Of a stretch of 64,000 bases of DNA, positions 2,297-8,161 are shown one piece after another (the first letter of the stretch is position 1; each line of letters starts with the position of its first letter). The position numbers were made by a program, and so were the translations under genes. A model generated the notes under the pieces. The model was not told where the DNA came from and made no database searches. It saw only the letters and a list, made by a program, of their open reading frames with translations. The stretch spans positions 29,411,632-29,475,631 of the forward strand of contig CM055102.1 in the NCBI GenBank assembly GCA_029204225.1. Direction: 5' to 3'. This DNA is from Diphasiastrum complanatum. Lineage: Eukaryota > Streptophyta > Lycopodiopsida > Lycopodiales > Lycopodiaceae.

Positions 2297-2427
2297 TGTT
2301 GGAATATCAATCCACACTCTAGAGAGAACTATCAAACAGGGCGGATAGCTCAGTGGTAGAGCATCAAATCTGTATGGGTTCGAATCCTAGTCTGTCCATC
2401 CATATTATGATTTATGGATTTCTAACA
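2297..2427 (+). repeat. tRNA-bearing LTR copy 1 (deleted by 13 bp)
   Basis: Starts TGTTGGAATATC and ends TTTCTAACA. The tRNA-like part is at 2339-2398 and has lost 13 nt across the anticodon arm, but keeps the A box (TAGCTCAGTGG) and B box (GGTTCGAATCC). The primer binding site follows directly at 2428-2440. Confidence 0.85.
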
Positions 2428-2545
2428 TGGTATCAGAGCCAAGTTAGACCTAACAGGTCATGGTGTCAAAGCCATGGTTAGGTGGCCCAAGTTGTGGGGC
2501 AGAGGTGACAGCTAGGACCCCAACCAAGTGTGGCTTGAGGGGGGT
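2428..2545 (+). mobile_element. Miniature (TRIM) internal region 1
   Basis: A 118-bp non-coding internal region. It begins with the primer binding site TGGTATCAGAGCC, complementary to the 3' end of plant initiator-Met tRNA, and ends with the polypurine tract GAGGGGGGT at 2537-2545. No open frame of note. Length and layout match terminal-repeat retrotransposons in miniature. Confidence 0.8.
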
Positions 2546-2690
2546 TGTTGGAATATCAATCCACACTCTAGGAGAGAACTATGAAACAGGGCGGATAGCT
2601 CAGTGGTAGAGCATCCCATCCAGTATGAGGGAGGTCTTGGGTTCGAATCCTAGTCTGTCCATCCATATTATGATTTATGGATTTCTAACA
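2546..2690 (+). repeat. tRNA-bearing LTR copy 2
   Basis: A 145-bp TG...CA repeat. The tRNA-like sequence spans 2589-2661 (73 nt), with D arm GCTC/GAGC, A box and B box intact. A 7-bp inverted repeat (ATCCATA/TATGGAT) follows it. The primer binding site at 2691 has one change (TGGCATCAGAGCC). Confidence 0.87.
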
Positions 2691-2807
2691 TGGCATCAGA
2701 GCCAAGTTAGACCTAACAGTTCATGGTGTCAAAAGCCATGGTTAGGTGGCCCAAGTTGTGGGGCAAGTGACAACTAGGACCCCAACCAAGTGTGGCTTGA
2801 GGGGGGG
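2691..2807 (+). mobile_element. Miniature (TRIM) internal region 2
   Basis: 117 bp, closely similar to region 1. It runs from the primer binding site to a polypurine tract ending in seven G at 2801-2807, immediately before the next TGTTGG. Confidence 0.8.
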
Positions 2808-2951
2808 TGTTGGAATATCAATCCACACTCTAGAAAGAACTATCAAACAGGGCGGATAGCTCAGTGGTAGAGCATCTCATCCGGTATGAGGGAGGTCATG
2901 GGTTCGAATCCTAGTCTGTCCATCCATATTATGATTTATGGATTTCTAACA
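2808..2951 (+). repeat. tRNA-bearing LTR copy 3, acting as 5' LTR of the Copia body
   Basis: 144 bp. The tRNA-like part is at 2850-2922. Here the anticodon arm pairs best (TCTCA with TGAGG around the loop TCCGGTA), giving a nominal CGG anticodon. Position 33 is C, not the usual U, so decoding function is doubtful. The primer binding site TGGTATCAGATC follows at 2952 and leads into a Copia leader instead of a miniature internal region. Confidence 0.87.
2850..2922 (+). promoter_or_regulatory. tRNA-like Pol III promoter within LTR (best-folded copy)
   Basis: A 73-nt cloverleaf: acceptor GGGCGGA paired with TCTGTCC using two G-U pairs, D stem GCTC/GAGC, anticodon stem TCTCA/TGAGG, T stem CTGGG-type with loop TTCGAAT. 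The A box TAGCTCAGTGG and B box GGTTCGAATCC fit the eukaryotic internal Pol III promoter consensus. Related copies lie at 2339-2398 (deleted), 2589-2661, 7537-7609, 7799-7871, 8060-8132 and, on -, inside 9564-9708. I read them as promoter parts of the LTR, not as decoding tRNA genes. Confidence 0.75.
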
Positions 2952-3265
2952 TGGTATCAGATCTGCAGCAAGCTCGTTTGTTGGCGCCCTACCAGAAGAG
3001 GAGCTTCTCTGCTTTTTGTTGTGAAATTTCAGCATCTTGCTGATCTTTTCAAGTGGAGTTTGGATCAGCTTTTTTGTCTCTTTTCAGGGTGGAGGAGGGC
3101 GGCCATCAGAGATCTTGGATCAGCAATTTTTGGCACCCAAAAATCAGAGAAAGACATCTTGTGCTCCTATTTTCAGCTCTTTGTTTGCTACAAATGTTTG
3201 AGTAGATTTGGTTGTAAAAAGGCTCTCTTTCCTATCTACTACAAGCTGAAATTTTGTTGGAGGTA
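2952..3265 (+). other. Primer binding site and leader of the Copia body
   Basis: Untranslated leader between the 5' tRNA-LTR and the gag start. It holds the primer binding site (2952-2963) and the stretch GGCGCCCTACCAGAAG. That stretch recurs in slightly changed form behind the minus-strand tRNA-LTR near 9.5 kb, which shows the two Copia leaders are related. Confidence 0.65.
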
Positions 3266-4260
3266 ATGGCTAAAGAATCAAAAGCTATCGGTTCTTTGTT
3301 TAGTGAAGATCGATTGGATGGCACAAACTACTCCCTGTGGAGTTACATGATGAAGAATCTTCTCATAGCGAAAGGGCTGTGGGATTTGGTCATCGCACAT
3401 GGCAGGGCCAATTAGGAGTTAAACCCGACTATTATAGGACTCATTTCTTGGAGATGGATGACGTGGGGACCCCTATTCTACCACGCTATTTAGATTCTGG
3501 ATTATCAACTACTTGTTTACGCTTTTCATTATATGTCAGCCTTGAAGGTACTTGTCTTTCCCTTGATGTCTTTGGCACCTCCTACACCTCGTGGATCATC
3601 ATCATCAACATTATCTTCTACATCTTCGGAAGAACAAAAGAAGTGGGATAGAAGGGATGCACAAGCACATTCTATGGTTGCTCTTGTTGTGAAAAGATCT
3701 ATCTTACCTCATATTAGGTCTTGTAAGACATCTAAAAGTGTGTGGGATACACTTTATACTATGTATAGAGTCAAAAATCTAGCAAGAGTGGTGTATCTTA
3801 GAAATCAGCTTTCTTTGTTGAAGATGCAAGAAAGGGATCAAGTGACCAATCACTTGACGAAGATCAAGGATCTTCGTGAGGAGCTTCTCAATATTGATGA
3901 GATAATTGAGGATGCTCAATTTGTTTCCATTACTCTCAACCCATTACCTTCATCTTATCTTCCATTTGTTTCATCTTTGAGTATCCCTCTTAGGGGACAA
4001 CAACTCTCCTTTGATGAACTTGTTGGGCTGCTTCTTCAAGAGGAGCAAACGAGGCAAAATTTTGCGGGTGACACTCAACAAGATCAAGCTTTCTTCACGA
4101 AAGGCAAGGGCAAAGGCAAGTCAAAAGGAAAGGGGAAGCCTCCTTCCAAGGACGAGCAAAAGCCCGTTGGAGGTCAAAATGTCAACACTCAAAAGAAGAA
4201 AGGAAAGTGCCATTATTGCAAGAAGTATGGGCACTCATCAAGGATTGTAAGAAGAAGCTT
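3266..4260 (+). pseudogene. Copia gag, broken
   Basis: A coat-like Gag of a Copia retrotransposon. The start ATG at 3266 gives MAKESKAIGSLF and the typical LDGTNYSLWSYMMK motif. The frame stops at 3413, and the next 120 or so bases look unlike gag. The frame resumes around 3533 with the UBN2-type gag core (QAHSMVALVV, SVWDTLYTMY, LTKIKDLREELL). A lysine-rich stretch leads to a CCHC zinc knuckle starting CHYCKKYGH near 4207, where a one-base loss destroys the final Cys. Not functional. Confidence 0.8.
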
Positions 4261-4362
4261 ACGAAAGAGGAGAGTAAAGGAATTGATACTAGTCCTTCAC
4301 TTGCTACTTTGGAGTAAGAGCTTGAAGGTAGTGGTGATCTCTTCAACCAAGACTATGCTTTT

Positions 4363-6844: not shown

Positions 6845-6874
6845 TGAAGATTTCAGTTTTCTCATTAAGGAGGG

Positions 6875-7405
6875 TGTTAGAAATAAATGACTATGCTAAA
6901 GTTAATCCATAGGTTACTTTGACCCAAAAGGTCGAGATTTGTGTAACCATGGGTATTTAGTTATTTAGGCCATCTTAAGTTTGTCTTAAGTTCAGTTGGA
7001 CCCAATTTTGGTCGTGTACTGACTCGTGGGTCCTTAGGGGTCTAATTTTGTTTAGGGGCCCTATCTTGACTTTTGGGGGTGCCCTACATTTAGTAAGTGG
7101 TTAACCTTAGGGTTTGGTGGCATTTGGCCACATCCAGGTAGAGTACCTAGATGCTCATTGTATATTCCATTTTAAACAGTTTGGCTAAGCATTGCTCTCC
7201 ATTGCTCTTGTTGCTGTTTTCTCTCTCTCTCTCTCTCTCTCTCTCTCTCTCTCTCTCTCTCTCTCTCTCTCTCTCTCTCTCTCTCTCTCTCTCTCTCTCT
7301 CTCTCTCTCTCTCTGTGAGTTGGGCGCCCAGCCTCTACTCTCTTGTTTTCTATGGAGATTGATTGATAACTAGATCTTGGTGACTTGACTCTTGCTTTCC
7401 TAACA
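6875..7405 (+). repeat. 3' LTR of the Copia body, unlike its 5' LTR
   Basis: 531 bp, starting TGTTAGAAATAAATG directly after the polypurine tract and ending CTTTCCTAACA. It contains a 94-bp CT microsatellite (7221-7314). Only its extreme ends resemble the tRNA-bearing LTR; it has no tRNA-like part. The primer binding site follows directly at 7406, but leads into a miniature internal region. Confidence 0.8.
7221..7314 (+). repeat. CT microsatellite inside LTR
   Basis: An uninterrupted CT dinucleotide run of about 94 bp in the 531-bp LTR, upstream of the LTR end. The length is likely to vary between copies and assemblies. Confidence 0.95.
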
Positions 7406-7496
7406 TGGTATCAGAGCCAAGTTAGACCTAACAGTTCATGGTGTCAAAGCCATGGTTAGGTGGCCCAAGTTGTGGGGCAGGTGACAGCTAGGACCC
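7406..7496 (+). mobile_element. Miniature (TRIM) internal region 3, shortened
   Basis: Begins with the primer binding site and matches the other internal regions to about GGACCC. It then lacks the polypurine tract and the first TG of the next LTR (about 27 bp deleted). Confidence 0.75.
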
Positions 7497-7638
7497 TTGG
7501 AATATCAATCCACACTCTAGAGAGAACTATCAAACAAGGCGGATAGCTCAATGGTAGAGCATCCCATCCGGTATGAGGGAGGTCCTGGGTTCGAATCCTA
7601 GTTTGTCCATCCATATTATGATTTATGGATTTCTAACA
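7497..7638 (+). repeat. tRNA-bearing LTR copy 4
   Basis: 142 bp, starting TTGGAATATC because the initial TG is deleted. The tRNA-like part at 7537-7609 has the first base changed to A, and CAATGG in place of CAGTGG in the A box. Confidence 0.85.
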
Positions 7639-7756
7639 TGGTATCAGAGCCAAGTTAGACCTAACAGGTCATGGTGTCAAATCCATGATTAGGTGGCCCA
7701 AGTTGTGGGGCAGAGGTGACAGCTAGGACCCCAACCAAGTGTGGCTTGAGGGGGGG
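7639..7756 (+). mobile_element. Miniature (TRIM) internal region 4
   Basis: 118 bp from the primer binding site to a polypurine tract ending in seven G (7750-7756). Confidence 0.8.
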
Positions 7757-7900
7757 TGTTGGAATATCAATCCACACTCTAGAGAGAACTATCAAACAGG
7801 GTGGATAGCTCAGTGGTAGAGCATCCCATCCGGTATGAGGGAGGTCCTGGGTTCGAATCCTAGTCTGTCCATCCATATTATGATTTATGGATTTCTAACA
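7757..7900 (+). repeat. tRNA-bearing LTR copy 5
   Basis: 144 bp, TG...CA. The tRNA-like part is at 7799-7871 with GGGTGGA as the acceptor 5' strand; the A and B boxes are intact. Confidence 0.87.
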
Positions 7901-8017
7901 TGGTATCAGAGCCAAGTTAGACCTAACAGTTCATGGTGTCAAAAGCCATGGTTAGGTGGCCCAAGTTGTGGGGCAGGTGACAACTAGGACCCCAACCAAG
8001 TGTGGCTTGAGGGGGGG
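7901..8017 (+). mobile_element. Miniature (TRIM) internal region 5
   Basis: 117 bp, very like region 2. The primer binding site is at 7901-7913 and the G7 polypurine tract ends at 8017. Confidence 0.8.
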
Positions 8018-8161
8018 TGTTGGAATATCAATGCACACTCTAGAGAGAACTATCAAACAGGGCGGATAGCTCAGTGGTAGAGCATCTCATCCGGTATGAG
8101 GGAGGTCCTGGGTTCAAATCCTAGTCTGTCCATCCATATTATGATTTATGGATCTCTAACA
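8018..8161 (+). repeat. tRNA-bearing LTR copy 6, right end of the compound element
   Basis: 144 bp ending CTAACA at 8161, directly followed by the target duplication AAGCC. The tRNA-like part at 8060-8132 has one B box change (GGTTCAAATCC) and shares the TCTCA anticodon-stem variant with copy 3. Confidence 0.87.

Follow-up and report, generated by a model that had tools for sequence, protein, structure and literature searches.

A composite insertion of miniature retrotransposon material was identified at positions 2297-8161 of a 64,000-nucleotide stretch of the Diphasiastrum complanatum (Lycopodiaceae) genome (assembly GCA_029204225.1, contig CM055102.1, positions 29,411,632 to 29,475,631, forward strand), referred to below as the window. 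The block is a single insertion and consists of units of a terminal-repeat retrotransposon in miniature (TRIM), whose long terminal repeats (LTRs) enclose a tRNA-like sequence, and of a retrotransposon of the Copia type, termed Copia A. The TRIM is a new family of the published kind Helenus, abundant and young in what is the second plant genome with such elements; among plants, Selaginella is the only earlier case given in the parts of the Helenus paper considered here (PMC10886601). The LTR of this family probably carries a tRNA-derived promoter for RNA polymerase III (Pol III), with TRIM arrays and TRIM-Copia composites arising through intermolecular plus-strand transfer at the primer binding site (PBS).

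The added value of the present analysis lies in the composites, which indicate a candidate helper family and suggest that arrays form by a route guided by the PBS. Since hybrids of the TRIM and its helper candidate survive and are joined at one point, both the mover of the TRIM and the origin of its arrays become approachable by sequence, and the many young copies in a second plant genome make the question of Pol III use directly testable.

A single composite insertion in the window

The 5-bp duplication AAGCC borders the block on both sides, at 2292-2296 and 8162-8166, and joining the flanks by script gave an empty site that matches a neighbouring repeat across the join at 86 of 104 positions. 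The block and the element to its right are built as follows (window coordinates, strand, feature, basis).

2292-2296, target-site duplication AAGCC, left (read from the sequence)
2297-2427, plus, LTR1, with a tRNA part 13 nt short at 2339-2398 (Rfam and sequence)
2428-2545, plus, TRIM interior with PBS and G-rich tract (sequence)
2546-2690, plus, LTR2, tRNA part 2589-2661 (ARAGORN, Rfam)
2691-2807, plus, TRIM interior (sequence)
2808-2951, plus, LTR3, tRNA part 2850-2922, with the Copia leader following across the PBS junction (ARAGORN, Rfam)
2952-6874, plus, Copia A interior with broken frames: gag, Pol_BBD and gag_pre-integrs, integrase, reverse transcriptase (Pfam order, separate open reading frames)
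6875-7405, plus, single Copia A LTR of 531 bp, joined at the PBS to a TRIM interior (LTRs of this family precede the Copia A leader at other loci)
7406-7496, plus, TRIM interior, final ~25 bp gone (sequence)
7497-7638, plus, LTR4, TG lost, tRNA part 7537-7609 (ARAGORN, Rfam)
7639-7756, plus, TRIM interior (sequence)
7757-7900, plus, LTR5, tRNA part 7799-7871 (ARAGORN, Rfam)
7901-8017, plus, TRIM interior (sequence)
8018-8161, plus, LTR6, tRNA part 8060-8132 (ARAGORN, Rfam)
8162-8166, target-site duplication AAGCC, right (read from the sequence)
8167-9563, minus, Copia-type leader and gag remnant behind LTR7, split by the array insertion
9564-9708, minus, LTR7, whose tRNA part (9587-9666) carries an insertion of 7 nt and whose PBS junction leads into a Copia-type leader (ARAGORN, Rfam)

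A preliminary description of this DNA had reported six LTRs in tandem, each with TG...CA ends and a complete tRNA part. All six are present, but they fall into two sets of three (2297-2951 and 7497-8161), between which lie 4.45 kb of Copia sequence, an interior and one LTR. The tRNA part is complete in most of them, LTR1 being the one that lacks 13 nt of it, and LTR4 has lost its TG, the interior that precedes it being also ~25 bp short. The Copia partner shows Pfam matches to Retrotran_gag_2, rve and RVT_2 in the order typical of Copia, with integrase before reverse transcriptase, in broken frames, and its LTR at 6875-7405 gave no tRNA match with Rfam. A nested insertion of Copia into a TRIM, or vice versa, was ruled out, given that the inner element has one LTR only, which abuts a PBS.

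The further TRIM copy that had been described at 9.6 kb did not stand: LTR7 has the minus orientation, and what comes after it is no TRIM interior but a PBS and then a leader of the Copia type with a remnant of gag. It was likewise ruled out as a solo TRIM, with the Copia leader coming next and no adjoining target duplication. To the left of the window, the same strand has a polypurine tract (PPT), then the first part of an LTR resembling that of Copia A, and then unrelated sequence (locus L029). The LTR7 element sits within gag-like sequence, represented by an open reading frame (ORF) at 9710-10177 (minus strand) with a CCHC-type motif seen by eye and no Pfam match.

Anatomy of the TRIM unit and its tRNA-like part

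As a single copy, the TRIM is a non-coding element of 404 bp, with an LTR of ~144 bp that has TG...CA ends and an interior of ~117 bp. The LTR is composed of ~42 bp of 5' sequence, the 73-nt tRNA-like sequence and 29 bp of 3' sequence. The tRNA part contains an A box, TAGCTCAGTGG, and a B box, GGTTCGAATCC, and the interior contains the PBS TGGTATCAGAGCC, which was read by eye as being of the initiator-Met type, and a G-rich tract ahead of the next LTR. The preliminary description is borne out here, both for a TRIM with ~144-bp LTRs that hold a 73-nt A/B-box sequence, which the sequence, the Rfam matches and the genome copies support, and for an interior of about 118 bp with only a PBS and a polypurine tract. 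The tRNA family of Rfam scored above its gathering score (29) in 7/7 LTRs of the window (37-50 bits, E 1e-7 to 3e-4), and ARAGORN called tRNA-Thr or tRNA-Pro in six of the seven. A pattern made of the B box and the PBS had 3 matches in the window and 0 in 100 shuffles.

Conservation was counted in 90 LTRs, from which LTRs whose match missed either end were dropped; loci L001, L003, L004 and L005, being repeats of the window, L041 or L042, were excluded from this count as well as from the single-copy and array-allele analyses below. The A box was exact in 67/90, the B box in 79/90, and the motif CAAACAGGGCGG at the tRNA start was found in 68/90. The sequence TTTT is absent from the TRIM units of the window, and a run of four T (T4) is likewise absent from 90/90 LTRs, from the bodies of 32/32 single copies and from the 16 map-ordered LTRs described below. 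In the fetched flank, a T4 was located 2-883 nt downstream for 28/32 single copies.

Copies in the genome

The assembly searched comprises 1.74 Gb in 5176 contigs, of which 23 measure 42-102 Mb and one 10.9 Mb. A 25-nt pattern spanning LTR end, PBS and interior start (<=2 mismatches) identified 955 junctions genome-wide (480 + 475), each unit of an array being counted separately, whereas the reversed control gave 0. A scan of viral contigs gave 0 matches. Among 1229 first-look candidates for the 404-bp query, the 40 best were scored, and 37 distinct loci were analysed. Of these, 32 are single LTR-interior-LTR copies of 403-406 bp, the remaining five being L002, L015, L030, L041 and L042. Exact 5-bp target duplications flank 26/32 single copies, and two more have one mismatch. 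The tRNA part is present in 32/32 single copies, 40/40 LTRs of the 20 top-match loci score above the Rfam gathering threshold for tRNA, and no 5S family was found by Rfam in the window or in these 20 loci. The mean divergence between the two LTRs of a single copy is 1.9%. Since the 37 loci are top matches, this sample is biased to young copies of low divergence.

A less biased sample was therefore made up of the first 20 exact junctions listed on contig C1 that were new to the analysis; four others, fetched previously and all tRNA-bearing, were skipped. According to Rfam and ARAGORN, 16/20 junctions in this map-ordered sample have a tRNA-bearing LTR, with the A box exact in 12 and the B box exact in 12 of the 16. 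The other four, which correspond to three independent loci because L139 and L143 stem from the duplication of a single locus (99.9%), have a foreign LTR directly before the PBS, that of L147 belonging to Copia A. The case that most copies lack the tRNA part, named at the outset as one that would count against the element, is thus not what was found, and a sister TRIM without a tRNA part was ruled out, the four tRNA-less junctions having the Copia A LTR (L147) or unrelated LTRs at the PBS. The foreign LTRs at these four junctions suggest that transfer at the PBS may be frequent.

Composites of TRIM and Copia

The order tRNA-LTR end, PBS and Copia A leader start was found at 73 places (<=3 mismatches; control 0). 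Twenty of these junctions were fetched: 19 had LTR sequence across the tRNA region, with deletions within that region in some, and L103 had only LTR positions 82-144. ARAGORN, run on 10 of the 20, called a tRNA in six. The leaders joined to the tRNA-LTR at the PBS include that of Copia A and several unrelated ones. The reverse junction, in which the end of a Copia LTR is followed by the PBS and a TRIM interior, was found at 40 places (control 0). Eleven same-strand pairs of the two junction types lie within 15 kb of each other, compared with 0.025 expected under uniform placement. Five are of the order TRIM-Copia-TRIM and six of the order Copia-TRIM-Copia, and in the latter the junctions are 246-260 nt apart, with one TRIM unit between them; two of these six pairs, both on contig C4, may represent one duplicated locus. 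In the closed cases the Copia part terminates in a Copia LTR, after which the TRIM interior follows.

Exact 5-bp duplications were found in 8/9 composites that were read at both ends, namely AAGCC in the window, GTGCT in L030, ATGGT in L041, TATCT in L090/L108, GATAC in L094/L111, ATATA in L127/L128, ATGCC in L118/L119 and GACTG in L122/L123. The composites examined vary in their details and have the appearance of independent events. All junctions read between a tRNA-LTR and a foreign leader fall within a stretch of ~15 nt at the LTR end and PBS that TRIM and Copia A have in common, ACATGGTATCAGAGC, as judged by eye from native Copia A junctions. A comparison of the window copy of Copia with the TRIM unit gave no shared direct word >10 nt.

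The Copia A leader itself gave 1297 first-look candidates in the genome. Of 30 leader loci that were cut out, 26 have a Copia LTR lacking the tRNA part, two have a tRNA-LTR (the window and L061, which is the L041 locus) and two have no recognised LTR. Copia A is therefore an ordinary Copia family and not an owner of tRNA-LTRs, and it is a candidate for the helper of the TRIM, as the junction sequences would suggest.

Some further observations concern these loci. In L030 and L041, extra switches inside gag were seen by eye, from gag to TRIM interior and from gag to LTR start, and the joined sequences have little in common where they meet. In L099, L100 and L104, the partner joined at the PBS to a tRNA-LTR looks, by eye, like another TRIM, whose interior is ~45 nt long and whose LTR has a TATA-like motif. 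Near-identical junctions between tRNA-LTR and foreign leader are clustered on contig C5 at 37.5-38.0, 49.6-51.0 and 65.2-65.7 Mb; judging from the coordinates, the clustered matches on C5, C16 and C20 are probably local duplications.

Proposed mechanism and alternatives

The mechanism proposed to account for the anatomy, copy number, 5-bp target duplications and junction positions would require the co-packaging of TRIM and Copia and a plus-strand transfer between them. Transcription would start a short way ahead of the tRNA part in the 5' LTR. Plant tRNA genes usually have CAA motifs upstream. Since there is no T4 run inside the unit, a Pol III transcript would run past the 3' LTR and end in flanking DNA, and transcripts of tRNA-derived short interspersed elements (SINEs) likewise end in the flank. 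Such read-through need not block retrotransposition, because strong-stop DNA could still anneal within the 3' LTR. Copia proteins would package the TRIM RNA, with initiator Met tRNA as the primer at the PBS, and the cDNAs of TRIM and Copia would then occupy the same virus-like particle. When LTR retrotransposons replicate, the primer tRNA serves as template for the PBS of the plus strand, which then pairs with the complementary PBS at the minus-strand end. As TRIM and Copia carry the same PBS, a plus strand from one template could anneal to the minus strand of another and continue there. This transfer may be repeated serially between co-packaged partners, in which case TRIM to TRIM transfers would generate arrays, and TRIM-Copia-TRIM and Copia-TRIM-Copia transfers the two types of composite, the block in the window being one of them. 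On balance, the evidence favours a shared PBS that acts as a relay, by which one round of reverse transcription concatenates TRIM units and splices them to several Copia families. If so, TRIM arrays would be a by-product of reverse transcription, the helper would be identified through its hybrids, and an LTR with a Pol III promoter would have a way of being placed ahead of a coding retrotransposon.

An alternative, considered unlikely, is that arrays and composites formed after integration, either because extrachromosomal one-LTR circles of the TRIM or of Copia recombined with copies already in place or because LTRs crossed over unequally, with the TRIM still being of the Helenus type. Recombination is one of the two origins discussed for Cassandra arrays in the parts of PMC7215508 used here, and crossing-over between TRIM units would be easy, as they have whole LTRs in common. 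However, circle recombination would have to reuse the ~15 nt common to TRIM and Copia A repeatedly, and with several partners. Serial duplication would also leave rare alleles shared between units, whereas alleles that are rare among the single copies are mostly private to one unit of an array (private/shared: window 12/2, L030 12/0, L002 4/0, L015 6/0, L042 3/0, L041 3/1, L084 3/1 and L083 7/1), which fits array units that were alike at birth. Divergence is of little use for ordering the units of an array, because it is star-like, with 1.85% between the LTRs of a copy and 1.89% between loci.

Somewhat less likely again is that the tRNA part is a decaying passenger in an element transcribed by RNA polymerase II (Pol II) and has no role for Pol III. 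The tRNA part is the more variable portion of the LTR and selection on it is not visible, but the conservation of both boxes and of the motif at its start, together with its retention in every single copy, speaks against a passenger, and no TATA box (TATA, A/T, A) was found in the one LTR copy tested.

Several observations weigh against transfer at the PBS and a Pol III promoter. The outer target duplications would also be preserved by circle recombination after integration, and a few alleles are common to units of one array (two in the window and one each in L041, L083 and L084). Because Copia A served as the basis of the junction pattern, the partner frequencies are biased and unreadable from the counts. 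The L120/L121 composite has no exact duplication (GAGTC, TACTC), and among seven downstream stretches fetched only two closed a composite with a target duplication; L091/L109 has a Copia LTR and then TRIM units, unclosed within the fetched stretch, and L110, L112, L113 and L114 have no closing end in theirs. As for the promoter, 26% of base shuffles of one TRIM body also lack T4, for which reason the absence of T4 carries little weight. The tRNA part varies more than the LTR flanks (0.021 versus 0.007-0.009 minority per site), and no both-sided, pair-keeping changes were found in 16 pairs of three stems; accordingly, no selection on promoter or structure is demonstrated.

It is very improbable that a Copia family with tRNA-bearing LTRs is a regular autonomous family of which the TRIM is a deletion derivative. 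Copia leaders do have a tRNA-LTR immediately in front of them, twice in the window and at many other sites, but the counts at Copia A leader loci given above rule out a Copia family that regularly owns such LTRs, closed composites end in a Copia LTR followed by a TRIM interior, and the interiors of TRIM and Copia have nothing in common beyond the PBS. A true tRNA gene cluster or a SINE family has practically no probability, since, in spite of the ARAGORN calls of tRNA-Thr or tRNA-Pro in six window copies, the call alternates between the two anticodons, several predicted folds are not cloverleaf, and the LTRs with TG...CA ends, the PBS and the 5-bp duplications occur at dozens of unrelated sites.

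Relation to known elements

The following comparisons refer to the portions of the cited papers that were available. Helenus comprises TRIMs whose LTRs contain tRNA-like sequence, described from fungi, animals and, among plants, only S. moellendorffii (Kojima 2024, PMC10886601), and was grouped with Ajax and Cassandra as TRIMp3 (PMC10886601). The family described here resembles Helenus in being a TRIM of <1000 bp without coding capacity (403-406 bp, n=32), in having an A/B-box tRNA-like LTR sequence and a PBS and PPT between the LTRs, and in the 5-bp target duplications of plant and fungal members (26/32 exact here). The S. moellendorffii element has an LTR of 120 bp and an interior of 85 bp, compared with 144 and 117 bp here, and the present genome far exceeds that of S. 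moellendorffii in size. Tandem arrays were reported for one fish family, and Copia helpers were inferred for fungi from the PBS and interior similarity (PMC10886601); composites with Copia at the PBS point, as seen here, are not described for Helenus in the portions available (PMC10886601). Transcription of Helenus by Pol III is unproven in that paper (PMC10886601).

The parallel that had been drawn with Cassandra is supported in that both are TRIMs with a Pol III gene in the LTR, the PBS TGGTATCAGAGC and tandem arrays (PMC7215508, PMC10853983). It does not extend to a new parallel invention, since a tRNA-bearing TRIM had already been described as Helenus (PMC10886601). The two differ in that Cassandra carries 5S rRNA sequence and LTR terminators, whereas a tRNA part and no T4 run are found here. 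For Cassandra, which has the same PBS, array origin was discussed as recombination or template switching, and its autonomous partners were called unknown (PMC7215508). Tandemly arrayed TRIMs from L3I2 to L5I4 with 5-bp duplications, as well as TRIMs in Selaginella, were reported by Gao (2016, PMC4717578); the present arrays are likewise multi-unit and bordered by 5-bp duplications, but the portions available mention no tRNA part. Complex Triticeae elements with target duplications were explained by template switching via the R region (Sabot and Schulman 2007, PMC1950507). The present composites share with them several LTRs, 5-bp duplications and an explanation by reverse transcription, but involve unrelated LTRs joined at the PBS instead of the R region of one family. 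Recombination among members of one family during bursts has also been reported (Sanchez 2017, PMC5668417).

Other features of the window

Exons of a DDI1-like gene lie on the plus strand at 14650-21990, with an aspartyl protease domain (Pfam E 4e-24), a UBA domain (2e-10) and Protein Data Bank (PDB) matches to DDI1. No 5' exons of this gene were found by eye in the stretch of the window that was read, so that the array may be situated within the 5' portion of the gene or close to it. Degenerate elements occupy the region from 28368 to 41000 and include a Gypsy-type pol at 28368-29918 (minus), a Copia element at 34220-37510 (minus) and Copia-like ORFs, seen by eye, at 39461-40982 (plus). Long CT or GA dinucleotide runs are located at 7215-7313, 13070-13135, 13918-13974 and 21531-21577, and one of them falls within the Copia A LTR of the array.

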